NCBI GenBank assembly: GCA_026003255.1
Contig: BPGX01000002.1
Coordinates: forward strand, 186,001-250,000
Source: Bacteroidia bacterium
Lineage (GTDB): Bacteria > Bacteroidota > Bacteroidia > B-17B0 > Aurantibacillaceae
DNA: 64,000 nucleotides
Reading direction: 5' to 3'
Under the pieces are notes generated by a model that worked only from the letters and a program-made list of their open reading frames with translations, searched no databases and was not told the origin of the DNA. Every line of letters begins with the position of its first letter. Positions within the stretch are counted from its first letter, which is position 1. The translations under genes and the position numbers were made by a program. Of the stretch, positions 44,314-63,127 are shown one piece after another.

Positions 44314-44506
44314 AATCCAAATTATGTATTAGAAATTATGTGCATTCACAAGAGATTGCTTCGGGTGTTAACACGCCCTCGCAATGACGAGCTTATTCTT
44401 CATTCTTACAACTATCAAACTGGTGAAAACAAAATAATGTCTAAAACCAGCAGTAATATAGAAAAGCATAATATTTGAGTAATGTTTAATGAATAATTTG
44501 GGTTTA
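44314..44506 (-). repeat. MITE-like interspersed repeat, type 'CATTGCGA', inverted copy d
   Basis: CCAAATTATGTATTAG...AAGAGATTGCTTCG...CCTCGCAATGACG...AATGAATAATTTGGGTTTA; internal part is the reverse complement of copies b and c. Confidence 0.7.
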
Positions 44507-44827
44507 ATCCAGATTATGCAATAGAATCAATAGAGTTTGAATTTTCTACAAAATCCATATAATATATCTTAACCACAATTCACCTTGTTAAATATAGCAA
44601 CTATCTAACAGGGTGAACACTAAGAAAATAAACAAAGTTCACAAATCCCTTATATATTTTGCAAACGAGAAATGCTTTGTATTCTTAATAAAAAACTTTG
44701 TGATTTTTGTGGTTCAAAATATCAGACAATTTAATTTAAAATCAAATTGGCGATATAAATTTTTATTCTAATATCAATGAAATGAAACAATATGTAAGTT
44801 TGCTAATTTTAATGTATAATTGGGGTT
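44503..44827 (+). repeat. MITE-like interspersed repeat, type 'AACCACAATG' (copy e)
   Basis: TTTAATCCAGATTATGCAATAGAATCAATAGAGTTTGAATTTTCTACAAAATCCAT...AACCACAATTCAC...TTTTGTGGTTC...TAATGTATAATTGGGGTT. Confidence 0.65.
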
Positions 44828-51470: not shown

Positions 51471-51526
51471 TCCAAAAATTATGGGCTTAAATTTAGTGGA
51501 ATAATTGGATACTTGGGGTTATATTT

Positions 51527-51817
51527 ATCCTATGCAATAGAATTAATGGATTTTGAATTTTCTATAAAATCAATTTGTTATATTCTAACCACAATGAACA
51601 CAAAAAAAATAATCAAAGTCCACAAAGTTTAGATACATTTTGTAAGTGAGAAAATACTTTGTGGTTCTTTGTAAAAAAATTTCGTTTTCTTTGAGGTTTA
51701 AGTAAATTAAAAATGAAAGTAATTAATACCAAACTGGTGATGAATATTTTTGCTGAAATTTCAATAGAATAAAGCAATGTATATAGCATATTAATTTTTA
51801 ATGCATATTATGGGTTT
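51527..51817 (+). repeat. MITE-like interspersed repeat, type 'AACCACAATG' (copy f)
   Basis: CCTATGCAATAGAATTAATGGATTTTGAATTTTCTATAAAATC...AACCACAATGAACAC...ACTTTGTGGTTC...TAATGCATATTATGGGTTTA. Confidence 0.65.
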
Positions 51818-52578: not shown

Positions 52579-52712
52579 GCATAACGTTTTGCAGCTACCC
52601 GAAGATGGCGATTTCGAAGCACTTCACTGTCAACCAAGCACAAACTTTGATAGAAGCACAAAGCTTGATTTAACCACTGAACCGCCACTTTTGGGTAGGT
52701 GCTGTTATGGGC
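52579..52712 (-). repeat. attC-like imperfect palindrome A
   Basis: CATAAC-GTTTT-GCAGCTACCCGAAGATGGCG / CGCCACTTTTGGGTAGGTGC-T-GTTATG; 124 bp from AAC to GTT. Confidence 0.75.
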
Positions 52713-52714
52713 TG

Positions 52715-53362
52715 CTATTTGTTCTGTCTCCATTGTGATGTCGCCCTAATTCCATAATGAATTCCGTTAATTATTTCTGGCATTATGTTGTCAGTAAGTG
52801 AATTTAATTGAAAAGGCTCAAACCTTGCATTTTTTCCAGGAAACGGAATAGTTGTCACATAGTTTTTGTCAAACGATGTAAAGTAAGTCCCTTGAACACC
52901 TAACAAACTAATAAATATTTGATAAGGTGGTATTGTCTTATACAACTTTTCGTGAACTGCCTTACTTGCTTCAACAAAATCTCTGATAGCATAAAATAAA
53001 TTTTCAACTTTGATATAATTGAAACGTCCGTCCAATGAATTTTGATTTTCTATTGGATGTATAAACGTTTCCGTTATTCCGTTTTGAAAACAAATGTAAT
53101 ATTCATTGTTGGGTGTGTAACTTAGAATTCTATCACCAAGGTCGGAATATCTCGTGTCTAAGCCAATAAGCCGTCTAAATGAATGTTGTATTTTGAATTT
53201 ATGGTCTATGTCGTTCCAGTCTATTGGGTTGTTGTCTAATATATTTTCCGGGATGAAATGGATTAAAATTCCGTTGGTGTTAATTAAGTTTTCATTCACT
53301 TCTTTGTTTTCAACGCTGTCAATTCTTTGACTAACGTATTCTTTCATTTGTTCTATGTTCAT
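52715..53362 (-). CDS. Hypothetical protein (cassette gene)
   Basis: ATG 53362 (MNIEQMKEYVSQRID...); the longer listed ORF runs into palindrome B. Confidence 0.6.
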   Translation of the reverse strand: MNIEQMKEYVSQRIDSVENKEVNENLINTNGILIHFIPENILDNNPIDWNDIDHKFKIQHSFRRLIGLDTRYSDLGDRILSYTPNNEYYICFQNGITETFIHPIENQNSLDGRFNYIKVENLFYAIRDFVEASKAVHEKLYKTIPPYQIFISLLGVQGTYFTSFDKNYVTTIPFPGKNARFEPFQLNSLTDNIMPEIINGIHYGIRATSQWRQNK

Positions 53363-53386
53363 TGTTGTCGTTTTATAGTTGCACAA

Positions 53387-53511
53387 AACGGTTTGCGGTT
53401 TGGCGTAGTGGCGAATTGTTAGCACAAAAGTTTAATCAAAGAACTTCAATTGAACCTACCACTATACTGTCATACGAAGCACTGCACCCGCCATTACGCT
53501 AAACCGCTGTT
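53387..53511 (-). repeat. attC-like imperfect palindrome B
   Basis: AAC-GGTTT-GCGGTTTGGCGTAGTGGCG / CGCCATTACGCTAAACCGC-T-GTT; 125 bp. Confidence 0.8.
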
Positions 53512-53532
53512 ATCGGCTTCTCTTCTGTCCGT

Positions 53533-53859
53533 CTATTTGATTTTCTTTTTCTTCTTGTCAAGATAGTCGCCAAGATTATTGAGTTTTGAGTTCCAAAACT
53601 TCTCTAATTGTCTAATGAAATCTTCTATTTCTTTTAGTGCTTCAAGTTGGGCATAGCAGTTTCGCTGTCTGCCGTCATTGTCGCTTTTTTGAATAAATAA
53701 AAGTCCGTTGTCTTCTAATATTTTCAAATGTTTAGAAACGGCTGGTCTCGACATATTAAACTTGTGAGCAATGGTGTTGACGTTGGTTGGCTCTTGAGAA
53801 ACCATCATCAGAATTTCTCTACGAGTAGGGTCGGCAATGGCTTTAAAAATATCTGTCAT
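53533..53859 (-). CDS. ArsR-family transcriptional regulator (cassette gene)
   Basis: MTDIFKAIADPTRREILMMVSQEPTNVNTIAHKFNMSRPAVSKHLKILEDNGLL; ATG overlaps the upstream stop (ATGA). Confidence 0.88.
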   Translation of the reverse strand: MTDIFKAIADPTRREILMMVSQEPTNVNTIAHKFNMSRPAVSKHLKILEDNGLLFIQKSDNDGRQRNCYAQLEALKEIEDFIRQLEKFWNSKLNNLGDYLDKKKKKIK

Positions 53860-54272
53860 TTGCGTAAGTATTTTATCAAGTTCACCGTCAATACTTTGTT
53901 TAGCCAACCATTAGTCAATATTCGGCTTACGATTATCTTATTGAAAAATCCTTCAAAGCCACTATGTACAAATTGTAATTGAGTTTTGTTACCCAATTCC
54001 TTTAATTCAAAACTCACAGTGGTATTTTTCAATGTACCACCACTCCAACTAAACGATAGTTTGCTTTGATGTTCAACTTCCAAAACTTCACAGTCAACAA
54101 TACCGTTAAAACCAGGATAAGGCTTTGTTTTAAATTGAAACTTGTGTCCAATTATTGGTTTTAAATCACACGGCATTAACCATTCGCTCAACGCTTCACT
54201 GTTTGTTAGTGCTTCCCAAACGTCTTTTATCTGGTGGTCGTAAACTTTAGTAAATTCAATTCTTTTTGCCAT
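53856..54272 (-). CDS. SRPBCC/AHSA1-domain protein
   Basis: MAKRIEFTKVYDHQIKDVWEALTNSEALSEWLMPCDLKPIIGHKFQFKTKP...; typical partner of this ArsR type. Confidence 0.88.
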   Translation of the reverse strand: MAKRIEFTKVYDHQIKDVWEALTNSEALSEWLMPCDLKPIIGHKFQFKTKPYPGFNGIVDCEVLEVEHQSKLSFSWSGGTLKNTTVSFELKELGNKTQLQFVHSGFEGFFNKIIVSRILTNGWLNKVLTVNLIKYLRK

Positions 54273-54273
54273 T

Positions 54274-54832
54274 TTAATTGTTACTATAAGCGATTTTAAT
54301 AATTTCAATCAGTTGTGCGTCAAAGTCGGCAATAGATTCCAAAGTTGTTTGGTAATTTATGCGTTCGAATGCCACTGTCTTGGCTTTTTTTGAACAGGTC
54401 TGTTTTAAAATCGGAAGGAAAGTTTAATCCTATTGTAATTTTTTTGTCCTTTGAGGCTTTTACTATACAAAACTGATTAGTTCGATAAAACGGAATATAC
54501 GTTTTGCAAGGCTGAACCCTTACATCTTTACCAATTTTTAAAAGTGTTGCTTCAATTTTTTTAAATGCCTTCAATAGTTCGGCAGAGTTAAAAAGATTTG
54601 GAATGAAACTATCTGTTTCTGCATAAATATTTGTTTCAGAAAAGTATTCGTAAATTTTTTGAGCCTGAAAGTGTCCAAGGTTATGTTCAGACTTTAAAAA
54701 GTCAATTACCTGCTTTTTGTCAGCCAGTTTAGACTTTTTTACTAATGTAAGCTATTGCTCCAAGGTCTTACCTGTTTTATCTTCGAGGTTACGCAATATT
54801 CTTCACCCATTTGTTTATGTCCTAATGCCATA
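54274..54832 (-). pseudogene. DUF4287/DUF5655-like gene with several frameshifts or stops
   Basis: MALGHKQMGEEY..., NLEDKTGKTLEQ*LTLVKKSK, ADKKQVIDFLKSEHNLGHFQAQKIYEYF..., and after an A7 tract KAKTVAFERINYQTTLESIADFDAQLIEIIKIAYSNN in another frame. Confidence 0.7.
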
Positions 54833-54837
54833 AAGTT

Positions 54838-55386
54838 TTATTTAGAAGTTTGAAATTGTTTGCGTAAAGAATATGAAATGGCAGTGCCTGCTAAAAACCA
54901 ACCCACCAGCATATTCAGCCATCTAGCCAAAACGTATTCTGTTGAGAAACCCCACCAATTCCACATTGGAATAAAAAAGGCAAATCCCACCAATACTCCA
55001 ACTAAGAGTATAAACTTAACTCGTTGAGAATGTTTTGTAAAATTGGTCAGTAATAGAAGATATGTCATGATAAACCAAACTACCACTTGTGTCAATACTT
55101 CAACAAGCATAAACTTGGCTGGATTGTAAAAAGAAGCGTCATTTTTTGCAATAAAGTAAACGATGTCTTTGGCTTTTCCGTCAACAGTTTTGGTGTCGTT
55201 ACCGTTTGGCCAAATGTACATTCCACTCTCGGGTAAGTTTTCATTTAGTGTCTTGTTCACTTGCTCCGCATTAGTTGCTGTTTTGTATGGCAAGCGAAGC
55301 AAAGGGTTAAACCATTCTGTTGCTCCCCAAAAGAACATGACCAAAGTTCCGATGGCTGTTCCGATTAATAGATTTTTTGTCTTCAT
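54838..55386 (-). CDS. Hypothetical membrane protein (cassette gene)
   Basis: Multi-TM ORF MKTKNLLIGTAIGTLVMFFWGATEWFNPLLRLPYK... Confidence 0.7.
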   Translation of the reverse strand: MKTKNLLIGTAIGTLVMFFWGATEWFNPLLRLPYKTATNAEQVNKTLNENLPESGMYIWPNGNDTKTVDGKAKDIVYFIAKNDASFYNPAKFMLVEVLTQVVVWFIMTYLLLLTNFTKHSQRVKFILLVGVLVGFAFFIPMWNWWGFSTEYVLARWLNMLVGWFLAGTAISYSLRKQFQTSK

Positions 55387-55403
55387 TTATATAAATTTTA
55401 TTA

Positions 55404-55452
55404 TGTAACTAAAAAGTTACGCAAATGTATAGGAAACTTTTTGGTTACGCAA
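55404..55452 (-). promoter_or_regulatory. Paired operator-like palindromes around a TAnnTTTG promoter
   Basis: GTAACTAAAAAGTTAC and GGAAACTTTTTGGTTAC flank TATACATTTGCG (minus strand) upstream of 55386. Confidence 0.6.
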
Positions 55453-55543
55453 ATTTATTTTTGTCTTTTCTGTCAAACGGTTGAAAAGGAGTCTTTAGAT
55501 GTCGAGTTCGGTTAGGTGGTTTGGGTCTGTTAGAGTTGCCGAT

Positions 55544-55667
55544 AATGGTTTCGGGCTTTGCGTTCGGGCGGATTTCGGATCTCAAAACTGTCAGCCCAGC
55601 ACAAAAGTTGATGCGAAGTAGAATGTTCAATTAACCATTTTACCCGCCATTGAGCCAAACGCCTGTT
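55544..55667 (-). repeat. attC-like imperfect palindrome C
   Basis: AAT-GGTTTCGGGCTTTGCGTTCGGGCGG ... CCCGCCATTGAGCCAAACGCCT-GTT; 124 bp. Left arm shares TTTCGGGCTTTGCGTTCGGGCGGATTTCG with element D. Confidence 0.7.
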
Positions 55668-55681
55668 GGCTGCTGCCCTTT

Positions 55682-56476
55682 TTATTTCTCAAGTTTTTGT
55701 AGCTCTGCTAAAGTTGCTTCTCCAACTCCGTGAGCAGATGCTGGATTTTGACCTGTTACCACTCTTTGGTCTTCTGTAACATGTTTTTGCCAAAGTCCTG
55801 ATTTCTCAAAAATAGCACCACGTTCAATTAGTTTACTTTCAAGTAGAAAAGGAACCACATTTTCAAGTTTAACGGCTTTTTCTTCTTCATTAGTAAACGC
55901 ATTTATTTTTTTACCGTCAACTAAATATTTTCCGTTGCTAAGTTTGATATTCACGAGCCCAGCGGGTCCGTGACAAACTGCACTCACTACACCATTGGCT
56001 TCATAAATTTTGCGGGCAATCTCGGCAATCTCCTGATTATCGGGAAAGTCCCACATGGCTCCGTGCCCCCCCGCATATAGAATTGCTACATATTTAGAAG
56101 CGTCAACTTCACTTGGCTTCAATGTATTTTCCACTTTGTTGCGATACTCGGAATTTTCCCAAAATTTTTTGTTGATAGGGTCTTCCAGATTAAATCCATC
56201 CACAGGAGCTTTTCCGCCTTTTGGGCTTACAAAATCAATTTCGTAACCGGCAGAATGCAAAACATCCCAAGGGTGAGCCACTTCTGCAAGATAATAACCT
56301 GTGGGCTGTCCAGTACTGCCCTTTTTGTCGTGGCTTGTTACCACAAAAAGAATACGCTTTTCCATTTTTGTAACTAGTTTTTTTGTTTGTGCTGCTGCTT
56401 GGTTAAAAACAGAAGTAATGGTGCAGACAGCAATAACCATTAAACCTGCTTTTATTTTGAACATTGTCTTTCTCAT
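55682..56476 (-). CDS. Secreted DJ-1/PfpI family protein (type 1 glutamine amidotransferase domain)
   Basis: ILYAGGHGAMWDFPDN, VVSAVCHGPAGLVNIKLSNGKYLVDGKKINAFTNEEE. Confidence 0.9.
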   Translation of the reverse strand: MRKTMFKIKAGLMVIAVCTITSVFNQAAAQTKKLVTKMEKRILFVVTSHDKKGSTGQPTGYYLAEVAHPWDVLHSAGYEIDFVSPKGGKAPVDGFNLEDPINKKFWENSEYRNKVENTLKPSEVDASKYVAILYAGGHGAMWDFPDNQEIAEIARKIYEANGVVSAVCHGPAGLVNIKLSNGKYLVDGKKINAFTNEEEKAVKLENVVPFLLESKLIERGAIFEKSGLWQKHVTEDQRVVTGQNPASAHGVGEATLAELQKLEK

Positions 56477-56571
56477 ACGCTTTGAATTTTTTATTTGACA
56501 ATGCAAAGTTCTGCAACAGAAAGCTTTAGGCAAAGGAAGTAAATCACAAGTTTTGTGTGATGTATGTCACA

Positions 56572-57138
56572 CTATTTGGAAAGGCGACTAAGGGTTTCTC
56601 TTGATACTCCAAGATACGAAGCAATCAATGATTTGGGAACACGTTGAAATAAGGTTGGATAAGATGCAAAAAGTTGTTCGTAACGTTCTTTTGCAGAACT
56701 ACTCAAAAGAGATAAAATTCTTTTTTGTAGAGCAACATATCCTGCATTAGATTTTCGTCTGAAAAAGTGTTCTATTTTATGCAAATTGGAACAAATTTTA
56801 TCTCTATTGTGCAAACTCAGGCATAAAACTTCTACTTCTTCAATACAATCTATAGTTAGAGACGCTTTTGTCTGATTGAAATAAGCTTGATAGTCTGTAA
56901 TCCACCAGTCTTCCCAAGCAAATTGTAAAATATGCTCTTTCCCATCATCAGAGTTTGTGAAAGTGGCTTTTAAAAGTCCTGACAGAACAAAATAATCATT
57001 TATGACCGGGTCTCCCTGCTGTACAAGATATTGATGCTTCTTAAATCTCCTTTTGGTAAAGTGCGAAAGAATATACTCAAATTCACTATCAGTCAGTGGG
57101 GTAATTGCTTCAATATGTTTTCTTAAAAGTTCACTCAT
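56572..57138 (-). CDS. Crp/Fnr-family transcriptional regulator
   Basis: KRRFKKHQYLVQQGDPVINDYFVLSGLLK, QRVPKSLIASYLGVSRETLSRLSK; ATG 57138. Confidence 0.9.
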   Translation of the reverse strand: MSELLRKHIEAITPLTDSEFEYILSHFTKRRFKKHQYLVQQGDPVINDYFVLSGLLKATFTNSDDGKEHILQFAWEDWWITDYQAYFNQTKASLTIDCIEEVEVLCLSLHNRDKICSNLHKIEHFFRRKSNAGYVALQKRILSLLSSSAKERYEQLFASYPTLFQRVPKSLIASYLGVSRETLSRLSK

Positions 57139-57171
57139 TTCGATATCAGACTGGCTTATAGGGTTGCAGCC

Positions 57172-57295
57172 AACGTTTTCGGGCTTTGCGTTCGGGCGGA
57201 TTTCGAAGCACTTCACTGTCAACCAAGCACAAACTTGGATAGAAGTACAAAGCTTGATTTAACCACGTCAGCCCCCATTGCGGCAAACGGCTGTT
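57172..57295 (-). repeat. attC-like imperfect palindrome D
   Basis: AAC-GTTTTCGGGCTTTGCGTTCGGGCGG ... CCCCCATTGCGGCAAACGGCT-GTT; 124 bp. Interior nearly identical to element A. Confidence 0.75.
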
Positions 57296-57312
57296 ATAGC
57301 CAGTGGTTCTTT

Positions 57313-57822
57313 TTATTTGTCGTCCGAACAAGCGTGCCAACAACGGTTTTCACAGTCGTGCCAGCAATCAGTGTGTTCGTCTCTTGCCATTTCTTCACCA
57401 AATGTTTCACGGTATTTTTCTTTTGTTGCCAAGAAAGCATTTTTTAAGTCAATCGCATCTTGTTCACCACGCATACCGAAGTATGGAAAGTGATGTAAGT
57501 AATGTCCGAATACCGTTTCGCAATCTTTGTGATAGGCTCTTGTGTCAAGTATGTGGTAATGCCAAAACTTGTCCATAATCTTGTTAGGCACAATACCTTT
57601 ACCATACTTTTTACATAAGTGCAAGTAGCGTTTGTATTCTACTTCAGCACTTTCGCATTGTTCGTGTGTCCAGTTTTCTCCTTCTTCTGGTTCACGAAGT
57701 TTCATCTTAACCATTTCAAGGTCAAGATTGGCGATTACAGGGTCAATGCCCTTTTGATTGATTAGGTAAGAAACTCTTTCTACACTAATCGGGTCTGGAT
57801 AAACTAAAACTTTCTGTTCCAT
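57313..57822 (-). CDS. Glycine-rich-domain-like protein with Cys/Trp/His-rich C-terminal tail
   Basis: MDKFWHYHILDTRAYHKDCETVFGHYLHHFPYFG; tail DEHTDCWHDCENRCWHACSDDK. Confidence 0.7.
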   Translation of the reverse strand: MEQKVLVYPDPISVERVSYLINQKGIDPVIANLDLEMVKMKLREPEEGENWTHEQCESAEVEYKRYLHLCKKYGKGIVPNKIMDKFWHYHILDTRAYHKDCETVFGHYLHHFPYFGMRGEQDAIDLKNAFLATKEKYRETFGEEMARDEHTDCWHDCENRCWHACSDDK

Positions 57823-57840
57823 TGCTTTGATGTTTTTGGT

Positions 57841-58479
57841 TTATGAATTGTTTGCTGTTAGCCAAAATCTTTTTAGGAAGCGGTCTTTACTTCCTTCAAT
57901 TGGTGTCCTGCCGTGAAAAATTCGGTGATTGTCCACAACAAGAATGTCGCGCTCTTTTAATTTTATTTTAATCGGCTGCGTCAATCTGATTAAACGTTGA
58001 AATTCAAGCATTGCTGGATTCTGTTTGTCTTCATTTTTTACAAGCCAAAATGAATAATAAAACTTTCTGTTTCCGTTTTCGTCTGTCGCCACAAAAGGAT
58101 AGCTCTCTTTGTCGTCCGGGAATATTTTATGTTCAAAGAGTTCAATTGTCTTGAGTTGTTGTTTATAGTCGTCTGAGAGTTGCTGATAAATTTTTTCTGC
58201 GTCAATCAAAATACTGTCACCACCCAAGTCGGTCTGTTTGTAGCAATACCAAATTATGTATTTGGCTTTGTGGTGGTCGGTGTGGAAGTCAAGTCCACGA
58301 GCAGAAGTTACCATTCCTTTGCTTTCAGGTTTCACAACAACATCAGTAATGAAAATAACCTGTCCTAACGAATTTATTAACTCGTTTAATTGTACTTCGG
58401 TCTGGTCAGTCAGGTGAAGAAAACCGTTGTCTAAAAGTTCTTTTGTCACGCTGTTAATATGTTGTGTTTCTGTCGTCAT
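57841..58479 (-). CDS. TauD/TfdA-type Fe(II)/2-oxoglutarate dioxygenase
   Basis: LDFHTDHHKAKYIIWYC (HxD), NHRIFHGRTPIEGSKDRFLKRFWL; ATG 58479. Confidence 0.88.
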   Translation of the reverse strand: MTTETQHINSVTKELLDNGFLHLTDQTEVQLNELINSLGQVIFITDVVVKPESKGMVTSARGLDFHTDHHKAKYIIWYCYKQTDLGGDSILIDAEKIYQQLSDDYKQQLKTIELFEHKIFPDDKESYPFVATDENGNRKFYYSFWLVKNEDKQNPAMLEFQRLIRLTQPIKIKLKERDILVVDNHRIFHGRTPIEGSKDRFLKRFWLTANNS

Positions 58480-58491
58480 ACCATTGGCTAT

Positions 58492-58614
58492 AACGTTTTG
58501 CAAATTGCCGCAGGTGGGGATTTGGGAGCGCTTACTTGTTCCACAGTACAAAAGTAAATAGAAAACACGAACTTTAATTTACTTCTATCTCGCCACTTGC
58601 GGCAATTTGTTGTT
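58492..58614 (-). repeat. attC-like imperfect palindrome E
   Basis: AAC-GTTTTG-CAAATTGCCGCAGGTGGGG / CGCCACTTGCGGCAATTTG-TT-GTT; 123 bp. Confidence 0.8.
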
Positions 58615-58626
58615 AGTGCCAGTACA

Positions 58627-59772
58627 TCATTTCATTTTATTTATTTCATATATAAATTTAATTTTATTATAATTAAAATAGGCAGATGATTGTTTTAAAA
58701 ACTCCTCAACATTTTCAGTTTTTTTTAAGTCCATTTTGTCTAAAAAATGTTTTCCATACTTTGAAAGTAAAATATCAATCATGATAGCAGATAAAACATA
58801 GGCATCTGTGCTATTAGGATAATTGAAGATGTCATTAAAAATTTTTTCTGTAATAAACGGATATTTCGTTTTGAATTCCATTAAAAGTTGATCAAAATTA
58901 TTTTTACCACTTCCACCGAAATAAGTTGCAAATGCTTCGCTCAAAAAATGTCCCCATTTAAAGTGAGCGTCTAATATCAAATGAGTTAATTCGTGTGGGT
59001 AATAAAATAAACCATTTCCGGAAAAGAGAATTTTGGCTTCTGGAAATGCACGTCCGGTAGTGTATCCGGCATAAAAGAAGTTAAAGCCCAACAAATACCC
59101 TAATGATTGGGGAGATTGACAAACTACATAAGTAATGGTATCAGGGTTTAATCCCCAAAAACTACTTATGTGGCTAATAAATTCATAAGATTTTTTAGCA
59201 TCTACAAGGTTTAAGTGTAATGATGGTTCATAAATATAATGTATAGTATTGAATGATTCTTTTTTCCAAAAAGAAGTTCTTTTATTAAAAAGATTCGTGA
59301 GATATAAAGTATCGTTTTGATTATAAATAGCTACCTCCGTAATAGCAAATGGATTTGAATTTTGGTATATCAGAGAGTCGGAGGGTGATTTATTAAAATT
59401 CCAAAAAGCAGTAACGATGTAACAAAGTGTGTCTTCAAAATAAACAGATAGAATATATGGCTTGAAATAATTTAGTAAATATTTTGGGGGATACTGAAAC
59501 AGGGATTGATAAAATAATGCATACTCTAAATCCCCCCATTTATCAATATCTTGTGGGTTCCACATTTTTTTTCTTTCAGAAGGTTCTTCTGTGTAAAGAA
59601 ATTTTATCCAGTGATGGATGTATGGAATGATATTAGAATTATTAGTTGTATCACACAAAGCATGAAGATAATATGAAGGTGTGTGTTTGCTGTTTAAATT
59701 AATTTGTGAAGTTCCTAAATTTGGAATCATCATCAGAATGGCTATTATTATGCGTGAAATATTTTTAATCAT
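58627..59772 (-). CDS. Secreted HExxH (gluzincin-like) metallopeptidase in the lanthipeptide cassette
   Basis: Signal peptide; YYPHELTHLILDAHFKWGHFLSEAFATYF; start overlaps the lanM stop (ATGA). Confidence 0.75.
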   Translation of the reverse strand: MIKNISRIIIAILMMIPNLGTSQINLNSKHTPSYYLHALCDTTNNSNIIPYIHHWIKFLYTEEPSERKKMWNPQDIDKWGDLEYALFYQSLFQYPPKYLLNYFKPYILSVYFEDTLCYIVTAFWNFNKSPSDSLIYQNSNPFAITEVAIYNQNDTLYLTNLFNKRTSFWKKESFNTIHYIYEPSLHLNLVDAKKSYEFISHISSFWGLNPDTITYVVCQSPQSLGYLLGFNFFYAGYTTGRAFPEAKILFSGNGLFYYPHELTHLILDAHFKWGHFLSEAFATYFGGSGKNNFDQLLMEFKTKYPFITEKIFNDIFNYPNSTDAYVLSAIMIDILLSKYGKHFLDKMDLKKTENVEEFLKQSSAYFNYNKIKFIYEINKMK

Positions 59773-62651
59773 AAAAATTTTTTTGGGGATTCTAATGTTA
59801 AAACAAAAGGAATATTTTTATCAACAAATGTTTTTAATATAGCATAAGCAATGCCTGATGTACCAAGAAATAAACCATTTAAACTATATTTGCCATTGGT
59901 AAATCCTGTTTTCCATTGATAATTTATCCCATATTTATTTGCTTCAGCTATTAGTTGATTATTTGTTTCACTGGCTATTTTATTGAAAATGCCTTTTAGA
60001 TTAAAATTTATTTCATTTAATATCAAAGCGTTTCCAAATAAACCATGACAGAGGCAATGAGAGGCATTTGGATTAGTATTGTTTATCAAATCAGAAGATA
60101 TGATTATGTTGTGAAGACAAAAATCAATGTCAGTTTTCTTTAAAAAAGTATAGAAATTTGCAAAAGAGAGTAAAATGCCGGAGGAGCCATGGCACCAAGA
60201 AGGTGAGGCAAAAGTTTTCTTTTTATATCTTAAATCTAACCAAGATTTATTTGTAGCATCATAGTTATTCTGAATTTTATTTATTACTTTTCGTATAAAA
60301 TCTATATCATTTTTATCATAGCCAAATGTTTCATGAAACTTACTTAATGCAAATAAAAAGCCTGCGTTTCCATGTGCAAATCCAATAAGTCCTTTAAATT
60401 TATATGAATTCCAATATATTTCATCTTGCTCTTTTATAGAGGTATCTATAAGATATTTTTTTACTAAATGAATACATTCTTCTAAATAAGTTGCATTGGT
60501 ATTTACATAATAATTCAATAAAAAAACTAATAAACCAGCAGCACCATTTACAACATCAAGATGGACATCCTCATTAATGTTTTTTTTGATAAAAGGTATT
60601 ACTTTATATTGAAAGATTTCATCAATGTCAATAATATGAACATTTAGTAATTCTTGATAATGCCATAAAAAATACAAAGATGAGAATGGATAGTTATAAG
60701 GAGAAAATAAATAATAAGATTTCTCAGGATTAAAATTATTAAATGATTTTAGAGATATATTTAATAAGTACTCAGAGATTTGTTTATACTGCTCATTTCT
60801 TGTAGAATTATATAAATATAAATAAAATAAACCGATACCATCAAAACCATCATAAATTCCAGGTTTTTTTATAGCAACTTCCCATTGTCCAGATCTGCCA
60901 ATGGAAAAATCTATCCATTGAAAGCCATTACTCATTTCTAATGAGTCATCAATAATTTTGTCGCCAATTAATTGAGCGCAGTTAACTATATTTTCATTGG
61001 TATAATAATATTTTGGTAAATTTTTATTGGTATTAACTTCAATTGGTGTATCAATATCTATTTTATCTATGCAAGCAATGGATTTTTCAATTAGAGATAC
61101 CTGAAAATTTAGTATGTTAGAATCAAAGCCATTAATTCTTCTTATTGTTGAGTGAATGCCCGATTCTTTAAATAAAAAAATTTTATCTTGCTTGTATTTT
61201 ACAAATAAGTCCTCTGGATTATATTGAAACAAGGGAATATCCATATTGTACAAACACTCTTTTTCTATTTGTATTAATTGCATGGGAAAGCAATCGGGGT
61301 CATATGTTTGTTCTAAATATTTAAAAAACTGCCACCGTTCGTTACTTGAAATTAATAAATCCGGATGAAGACTTTCATTTAATAATATGGAATAAATATT
61401 CGTATGTCTTAGTAATAGTCGTGATGTGCAACTAGATTGTTTTGAAATGTAAATTATTTGTTCAAGTAGCCATTCTTTATTTTGTAAAATAAAAGCAGCA
61501 GCGTCTCTAAATCCTTTAATAAGTAATGAGCAATATTCTTGTGGAGAATGTAAAATTGTTTCAGAAGGTAAATGGTTCGGTCTTAATTCTTTTTTAACTT
61601 GATAAATATATAATTGTCCATTATTATTAATCGCAAGTTTTGTATTATATTCAAAAAAATTTTTAGATCCTATTGTCGCGAAATTTATACCAGGATCATT
61701 AGCATTATTAGGTGTTAAAAAGGGTAATATTCCGGTTCCAATTACAGATTCTTTAAAAATATCTTCTATTTCTGGCAATATATCATTCACAGAATTTTTA
61801 AGTGTTGGCTTAAATATACATTCAAGATCTAAAAAAATCGGTATTCCATTATATGCAATAACATTATCTTTGATTATATCCGATATACCAAGAATATAAA
61901 AAAATGCCAAATATTTACCCAGTGTAATATAAAAGTCATCAACTTTCTCTGTGCTATTAACAGGGTAATATTCAACAAACTCTTCAAAATAATGATTGCC
62001 CTTTCCTAATCGTTTAATTGAAAGGTAAGGGATTGAATATCCTTTCTTATGAAGATTTCTTATAAACGAGTCAAATACGTCTATACTTGTGAAATCTTTT
62101 GTTTTATACATTAAACTTTTTCCATAGCTAAAAATAATTTTAGCATGAGCATTTCCATTATGATGAAAATCGCCAAGAGGCCAATCTATTTCAATAGGAA
62201 AACCATTAATTTTAAAGAAATGACAAATATTTTCTTTGCTTTTTTCTAAATTCAAAAAAAACACTTTAAAATAGTTGATACTCTGTCCTATTCTAGTATT
62301 TACAACTCTTTCGCATTCTTTATATGAATTAAAAGTTGTAAATAATAATTCTTTTTCTGAAAGGCTAAAAAAAACTCTATTGTATTTTTCATACTGAATA
62401 TTTGATGAATAAAGTAATGGAATTTTTAGAATATTAAAAATATATTTACTTATTTTTTGAGTGATAGAATTAAGTAATTCAGGAGATTTTTCAATTTCGC
62501 TGATTTGTTTTTTTAGTTCCCAATTAATAACTTGGGCAATGGATGGGAAAAATTCATCAGTAATTTCAACAAACTTGAATTCTTCACGATTTAATAAAAG
62601 TAAGAATGATTTTGAGCTTGCCCGCGATAGTATTTCCTTGATATAATTCAT
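59769..62651 (-). CDS. Class II lanthipeptide synthetase (LanM-like: DUF4135 dehydratase + LanC-like cyclase)
   Basis: GDFHHNGNAHAKIIFSYGKSLMYKTKD (DUF4135); C-terminal LanC-like domain with SWCHGSSG and HCLCHGLFGN Zn-ligand motifs. Confidence 0.9.
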   Translation of the reverse strand: MNYIKEILSRASSKSFLLLLNREEFKFVEITDEFFPSIAQVINWELKKQISEIEKSPELLNSITQKISKYIFNILKIPLLYSSNIQYEKYNRVFFSLSEKELLFTTFNSYKECERVVNTRIGQSINYFKVFFLNLEKSKENICHFFKINGFPIEIDWPLGDFHHNGNAHAKIIFSYGKSLMYKTKDFTSIDVFDSFIRNLHKKGYSIPYLSIKRLGKGNHYFEEFVEYYPVNSTEKVDDFYITLGKYLAFFYILGISDIIKDNVIAYNGIPIFLDLECIFKPTLKNSVNDILPEIEDIFKESVIGTGILPFLTPNNANDPGINFATIGSKNFFEYNTKLAINNNGQLYIYQVKKELRPNHLPSETILHSPQEYCSLLIKGFRDAAAFILQNKEWLLEQIIYISKQSSCTSRLLLRHTNIYSILLNESLHPDLLISSNERWQFFKYLEQTYDPDCFPMQLIQIEKECLYNMDIPLFQYNPEDLFVKYKQDKIFLFKESGIHSTIRRINGFDSNILNFQVSLIEKSIACIDKIDIDTPIEVNTNKNLPKYYYTNENIVNCAQLIGDKIIDDSLEMSNGFQWIDFSIGRSGQWEVAIKKPGIYDGFDGIGLFYLYLYNSTRNEQYKQISEYLLNISLKSFNNFNPEKSYYLFSPYNYPFSSLYFLWHYQELLNVHIIDIDEIFQYKVIPFIKKNINEDVHLDVVNGAAGLLVFLLNYYVNTNATYLEECIHLVKKYLIDTSIKEQDEIYWNSYKFKGLIGFAHGNAGFLFALSKFHETFGYDKNDIDFIRKVINKIQNNYDATNKSWLDLRYKKKTFASPSWCHGSSGILLSFANFYTFLKKTDIDFCLHNIIISSDLINNTNPNASHCLCHGLFGNALILNEINFNLKGIFNKIASETNNQLIAEANKYGINYQWKTGFTNGKYSLNGLFLGTSGIAYAILKTFVDKNIPFVLTLESPKKFL

Positions 62652-62669
62652 AATAAAAAATAGAGAAAA

Positions 62670-62693
62670 GGAGCAGCGTATACACGCTACTCC
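62670..62693 (-). terminator. Attenuator-like hairpin between the candidate precursor and lanM
   Basis: Minus strand GGAGTAGCGT-GTAT-ACGCTGCTCC followed by TTTTCTCTATTTTT. Confidence 0.7.
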
Positions 62694-62702
62694 CTCTAAC
62701 TT

Positions 62703-62945
62703 TTAATCTTCCAGACCAATAGCAAATTCACAATCTCCTGCAACTAATTTAAATCCTGAAGGGGATTCATCAGGATCTGCTTTTTGAATTTGTACAGTTG
62801 GTATATCAGGAAAGCAACAATGAACAGTAGTGCCATCGCATGGGCGGCCACTGCCAGTTCCGGTTGAACCCAATGCACCATTGTACCTTTCTACAAGAAA
62901 TTCAAGGTCTGATTTTTTCATTCTCATGATTTCTGTAAGTGCCAT
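62703..62945 (-). CDS. Candidate lanthipeptide precursor peptide
   Basis: 80 aa MALTEIMRMKKSDLEFLVERYNGALGSTGTGSGRPCDGTTVHCCFPDIPTVQIQ...; Ser/Thr/Cys-rich centre, directly upstream of lanM. Confidence 0.75.
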   Translation of the reverse strand: MALTEIMRMKKSDLEFLVERYNGALGSTGTGSGRPCDGTTVHCCFPDIPTVQIQKADPDESPSGFKLVAGDCEFAIGLED

Positions 62946-63069
62946 AATTTTAAAATTTAAGGTTATGCTTACTCTTTTTTTAGGATTTTCAGCGTCCTCC
63001 CTTTTTATTATTTATAATGCTCAATATTTAACGTAATTTTTTCATTTATATTGTAATTGTATATGTATT

Positions 63070-63127
63070 GGCACTAACGGTTTGCGGCTATGCGCCGTTT
63101 TAATGGCGTATAGCCGCTGTTAAGCGA
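63070..63127 (-). repeat. attC-like palindrome F (short form)
   Basis: CTAAC-GGTTT-GCGGCTATGCGCC-gttttaat-GGCGTATAGCCGC-T-GTTAAG; 46 bp from AAC to GTT, 12/13 bp stem. Confidence 0.8.

Follow-up and report, generated by a model that had tools for sequence, protein, structure and literature searches.

The locus described here raises the question of whether a class II lanthipeptide-type pathway, rather than a single gene, can travel as one cassette. The usual picture of an integron cassette is one small gene that can work without partner genes. The source genome (G000) is a draft Bacteroidota assembly of 3.05 Mb (89.6% complete, contamination 5.26%), and the window, the whole stretch of 64,000 nucleotides that was analysed, comprises positions 186001-250000 of its 624-kb contig C2. 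All genomes compared are metagenome-assembled or draft. A first-pass annotation had proposed that a precursor peptide, a LanM synthetase and a secreted HExxH peptidase form a complete lanthipeptide locus packaged as a single mobile cassette. At the level of sequence, the genes present, their boundaries and sporadic distribution, the folded and covarying sites, and an array laid out behind a recombinase and an attI-like site make it probable that such a pathway travels as one mobile cassette of an integron-like array.

The three open reading frames were all found where they had been placed, on the reverse strand (Table 1). The repeats reported at the two ends, GTTAGTGCCAGTACAT and ATGTATTGGCACTAAC, likewise proved accurate, pairing in inverted orientation at 15 of 16 positions. 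The delimitation of the mobile unit as the block between two palindromic elements, termed E and F, stood in part: both elements are real, but under the naming rules for integrons the attC of this cassette is E, and F is that of the preceding cassette, so the mobile unit spans ~58494-63077. It thus measures 4.6 kb and runs, in gene sense, from 63077 down to 58494, starting at the GTTA of F. The remark that a three-gene cassette would be unusual fits the description of cassettes as carrying a single ORF in general, two or none also being observed (PMC8618304).

Table 1. Coordinates of the features of the cassette and its array (window positions unless a contig is named).
Feature	Position	Strand	Evidence or remark
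Mobile cassette (precursor, LanM, peptidase and own attC-like site), putative	58494-63077	-	Homology break at 63079; ends 15/16; three-gene unit of G446 framed by sites
Predicted secreted HExxH (HELTH) peptidase, 381 aa	58627-59772	-	4-bp overlap with LanM stop
Class II lanthipeptide synthetase LanM, 960 aa	59769-62651	-	Family profile, Pfam domains, motif alignment
Terminator-like hairpin between precursor and LanM	62670-62693	-	Four loci
Precursor peptide, 80 aa	62703-62945	-	Four conserved Cys (36, 43, 44, 72), without GG leader
Cassette-start arm of inverted ends	63063-63078		Gene sense GTTAGTGCCAATACAT
Cassette-end arm of inverted ends	58612-58627		Gene sense ATGTACTGGCACTAAC
Element E, attC-like site of the cassette	58491-58615	-	R1 103.4 bits (training member); covariation
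Element F, 48-nt attC-like site of preceding cassette	63075-63122	-	R1 38.5 bits, E 2.8e-6, outside training set
attC-like site closing next downstream cassette (TauD-like dioxygenase and 169-aa ORF)	57171-57296	-	R1 108.5 bits (training)
attC-like site	55543-55668	-	R1 102.9 bits (training member)
attC-like site	53386-53512	-	R1 103.2 bits (training member)
attC-like site	52582-52707	-	R1 122 bits (training member)
Tyrosine recombinase without insert, one in-frame stop	G000:C2:254410-255534 (L004:14410-15534)		Beyond window
Direct-repeat attI-like site	C2:254306-254366		First cassette of window array starts here

E and F are members of a single family of sites, which in gene sense read TAACA, a stem, the partner stem and CAAAACGTTA or CAAACCGTTA. 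A near-exact stem scan recovered E and F only, and with a looser stem score chance matches dominated at low thresholds; a covariance model of the attC-like sites, R1, was therefore built instead. R1 detects 15 sites in G000, 58 in G446 and 50 in G121; G384 has none. The model also picks up a site of 81 nt that was outside the training set, at window coordinate 66104 (L004:12104-12184; E 1.3e-5). In an alignment of 11 sites from four contigs 87% of cells are paired, a figure that drops by half when the partner is shifted one column, and both-sided changes occur in 14 of 23 pairs (0 of 500 shuffles). The single-strand fold is conserved, with an R box, an L box and a spacer at its centre that stays unpaired. 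Within the array the sites share one polarity, that of the array genes. No gap columns were identified within the consensus L stem of the 11 sites, which thus lack extrahelical bases as defined for attC (PMC2727003).

The pairing of cassette ends follows the pattern expected of excised circles. The start and end of an integron cassette derive from one site on the circle, and its own ends are complementary while those of neighbours need not be. In the LanM cassette, GTTAGTGCCAATACAT pairs with GTTAGTGCCAGTACAT, and over positions 4-12 of 11 cassettes own ends are complementary at 76 of 99 positions, against 41.9 when ends are re-paired (0 of 200,000 re-pairings; p<5e-6). A 15/16 inverted repeat enclosing a block without a recombinase could also suggest a non-autonomous transposon with 16-bp terminal inverted repeats, mobilized by a transposase in trans, with the palindromes being unrelated intergenic repeats. 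This reading is improbable, since each neighbouring block has its own end pair, matching only each other, the palindromes form one covarying family of fixed polarity, and different cassettes follow the same site, with the breaks at GTTA.

Copies elsewhere argue strongly for a single mobile cassette, homologous loci breaking at G^TTA in differing contexts, as judged from their sequences. Conserved synteny through E or F, named in the first-pass annotation as evidence against a cassette, was observed in none of them, and homology ends at G^TTA in all homologous loci found. G282, a genome of another order than G000, has the precursor together with the first part of LanM on contig JAOABX010000025, differing at 2 of 856 bp (99.8% DNA identity). 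The match starts exactly at GTTAGTGCC, and a different site and a permease cassette lie upstream. Misbinning was ruled out as the source of this match, as the contig belongs to the host lineage; its aldehyde dehydrogenase is 93% and 84% identical to those of congeners and 71% to that of G000, and up to the array it displays 83% synteny with the congener G419, in which the array is absent. A second copy in G000, on contig C19, retains LanM (86%) and the precursor (96%), lacks the peptidase, and begins at the same base, GTTAGTGCC, behind a different site. The site and cassette upstream of it are 99.9% identical on contig C27, where a different cassette follows, both breaks falling at GTTA. Contigs C19 (L003) and C27 (L027) also carry insertion sequence (IS) copies and near-identical recombinases beside the shared cassette and site.

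In G446, a genome of a third order, the precursor (74%), LanM (42%) and a peptidase orthologue (43%) in the corresponding place are found in the conserved gene order and framed by sites; the contig starts with GTTAGGCGA and the unit ends with TCGCCTAAC and a site. LanM proteins of this kind are sporadic, occurring in 1 of 89 genomes of the order of G000, 1 of 16 of the order of G282 and 1 of 23 of the order of G446. Both cassette ends are visible only in the window, in G446, where the contig starts at GTTA, and in a cassette of G121; the far end is missing in two copies, due to an IS in C19 and the contig end in G282. Several copies are interrupted by contig ends, of which the repeated sites are probably the cause.

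A larger relative was identified on contig C68 of G121, where an 8.7-kb cassette with matching ends lies between two sites and comprises a regulator-like ORF, a Cys-rich precursor with a GG leader, LanM, an HExxH peptidase, a C39-ABC transporter and HlyD. That contig (L028:1-9085) ends at sites on both sides. In G441 (C180), a site is followed by a regulator-like ORF, a GG-leader precursor and LanM up to the contig end. In an even sample of 395 genomes from the class, six bear LanM; in four of the six LanM lies behind an attC-like site, and in G384 and G429 it does not. The latter two were excluded as cassettes, having no R1 sites nearby; G846, with at most one marginal R1 match, and G849, with a degenerate downstream site only, were likewise rejected. 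Among viral contigs, none of 33 pattern matches was a relative, and plasmids yielded LanM only (~26-27% identity), without a precursor; neither set contained a related cassette.

Beyond the window, the array on C2 ends at a recombinase frame of ~375 codons that is interrupted by a single in-frame stop. After this frame comes an attI-like direct-repeat site, TCAGACCTAT...TCAGACCTATAAACTA^GTTAGCACTC, where the first cassette starts. The same type of site follows an intact 376-aa recombinase, 64% identical to that of C2, on contig C9 of G282, and also marks the start of the LanM array on contig C17 of G282, there without a recombinase. The order recombinase, attI-like site, cassettes is found in two taxonomic orders, the recombinase having an in-frame stop in C2 and being intact in G282. 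Direct-repeat sites of this type, TCAGAC(C/T)TAT, number 3 across 16 genomes; each stands where an array begins, and two are beside a recombinase gene. In G045 and G050 a recombinase directly adjoins the array, and in C19 a 283-aa tyrosine recombinase is placed divergently beside it, matching the integron-integrase model in two stretches with a score of 208.9, below the cut-off of 265. All three aligned array-side recombinases lack the IntI-specific insert of ~40 residues. In IntI structures this insert binds extrahelical bases, and the correspondence between recombinases without the insert and sites without such bases is suggestive only.

A full-length IntI is encoded in the assembly at L026:4401-5408, on contig C26, scoring 443 bits over TIGR02249 (cut-off 265), which might suggest a canonical integron whose ordinary attC sites are moved by this enzyme. 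Such an explanation is very improbable. C26, 6.6 kb long, carries no matching sites and is probably a contaminant, because a neighbouring ORF ends in a sorting domain typical of Ignavibacteria (assembly contamination being 5.26%, as above); moreover, extrahelical bases are missing from the attC-like sites, and the IntI insert is missing from the array-side recombinases. As both of these attributes are missing, the system is termed integron-like rather than canonical. It resembles attC/IntI cassettes, superintegrons and CALIN arrays in its single orientation and precise G^TT boundaries, in its folded sites of variable sequence with TAAC...GTTA boxes, an unpaired spacer and own-end complementarity, and in the candidate attI-like site beside a tyrosine recombinase. 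It differs in the consensus stem and the missing insert, in a recombinase orientation that varies, being the same as the array in some cases and opposite in others, and in cassette content, with three genes in 4.6 kb here and six ORFs in 8.7 kb in G121, against the single-ORF rule (PMC8618304). Integrons are known within the phylum, the IntegronFinder 2.0 survey having described a complete integron within Bacteroidetes in Salinibacter ruber (PMC9024848). The arrays described here, by contrast, come from the class to which the window belongs, and their recombinases score under the cut-off of the IntI model.

The synthetase displays the expected class II architecture, with DUF4135 (E=8.9e-62) and LANC_like (E=1.4e-47) Pfam domains and a score of 499 bits against TIGR03897 lanti_2_LanM (cut-off 304); its closest solved structures are LicM2 (6st5) and CylM (5dzt). 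The cyclase zinc ligands Cys820, Cys868 and His869 are all present, and the P-loop Asp/His, Lys, Asp, Asn and Asp residues are retained. In the kinase DxH motif, however, which in CylM comprises Asp347 and His349 (residue roles from PMC4550811), the Asp is kept and Ile replaces His (D258-I-I260). Across the five LanM proteins located behind attC-like sites the motif reads DII, DII, DII, DIM and DLI; two other LanM proteins keep the His, and CylM reads DLH. CylM H349A still gave a little dehydrated product (PMC4550811), and by analogy these variants may have kinase activity that is weak or altered.

The 80-aa precursor carries Ser, Thr and Cys, adjoins LanM and keeps its four Cys invariant. The two copies in G000 present a dN/dS of ~0.06, and in the comparison with G446 the conservation spans the whole precursor and exceeds that of its enzyme (74% versus 42%), which is unusual for a lanthipeptide. 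Conservation over the whole length, unlike that of a lanthipeptide with a variable core, suggests, from sequence comparison, a fixed target or role. The order precursor, hairpin, LanM is found in four loci, the hairpins being strong (z -5.6 to -8.1) and unrelated in sequence. The substituted DxH motif of the site-associated proteins, the His kept in two other LanM proteins, the lack of a GG leader and the conservation of the entire peptide are also what would be expected if the pathway were mobile but non-working, LanM having lost its kinase and the 80-aa protein being modified differently or not at all. This is unlikely, though the most credible of the alternatives: the P-loop residues and zinc ligands are kept, and related cassettes pair this type of LanM with GG-leader Cys-rich precursors, in one case with a C39 exporter.

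The peptidase begins with a signal-like stretch. It has no Pfam match, no meaningful NCBIfam match and no sequence match among solved structures, and its structure model is poor (mean pLDDT of 46). In G121 a related peptidase (25%) lies 3' of LanM, with HE.TH invariant. Class II clusters usually, though not universally, include a LanT with a C39 peptidase that cleaves at a GG leader. The cassette was reported to lack LanT, which was verified, and no immunity gene or exporter was identified in the window cassette either. No C39 peptidase domain was found in the G000 assembly (89.6% complete) or in that of G282; export would thus proceed via another transporter, or the product may not be exported by the usual route. 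The description of the locus as complete therefore goes too far, given the missing transporter and immunity gene, the absence of a C39 peptidase from the G000 assembly and the kinase motif without its His. Overall, the locus is similar to the CylM and LicM2 type of cluster in its DUF4135 and LanC domains, zinc ligands, upstream precursor and attenuating hairpin, and differs in the Ile of the DxH motif, the lack of LanT, immunity genes and a GG leader, and the HExxH peptidase partner.

In the favoured reading of a lanthipeptide-type pathway carried as one cassette, the terminator-like hairpin separating precursor from LanM would allow the 80-aa peptide to be made in excess, the predicted tasks of LanM are dehydration of Ser/Thr and thioether ring formation in the cytoplasm, and that of the secreted peptidase is trimming of the peptide outside it. 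A tyrosine recombinase would act on single-stranded, folded attC-like sites and cut at G^TTA, the cassette ends (GTTAGTGCC... and ...GGCACTAAC) would join to form a single site once the circle is excised, and the circle would re-insert at another attC-like site or at the attI-like site. More broadly, the data tilt towards an integron-like platform of this Bacteroidota class, with recombinases without the insert and matching sites without extrahelical bases, that moves whole peptide pathways between orders as single cassettes (precursor, LanM and peptidase, in one case also an exporter and a membrane-fusion protein). A biosynthetic pathway of three to six genes carried as one cassette would, if true, offer peptide natural products a direct means of spread, and an integron-like system of this kind would fall below the cut-off of the curated IntI model used here. 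A limited literature search, weak evidence in itself, found no report of lanthipeptide cassettes. With recombinase, attI-like site and cassettes laid out together, the mechanism is directly testable.

The remaining cassettes of the array (L004:9755-13604 and window positions 52582-58551) encode a DNA-methyltransferase-like ORF, DJ-1/PfpI, a Crp-like regulator, a TauD-like dioxygenase and several unknown ORFs. The window also contains a 90-nt intergenic repeat, at 44490-44579 and 51506-51595, whose two copies are 78% identical and unrelated to the attC-like sites.
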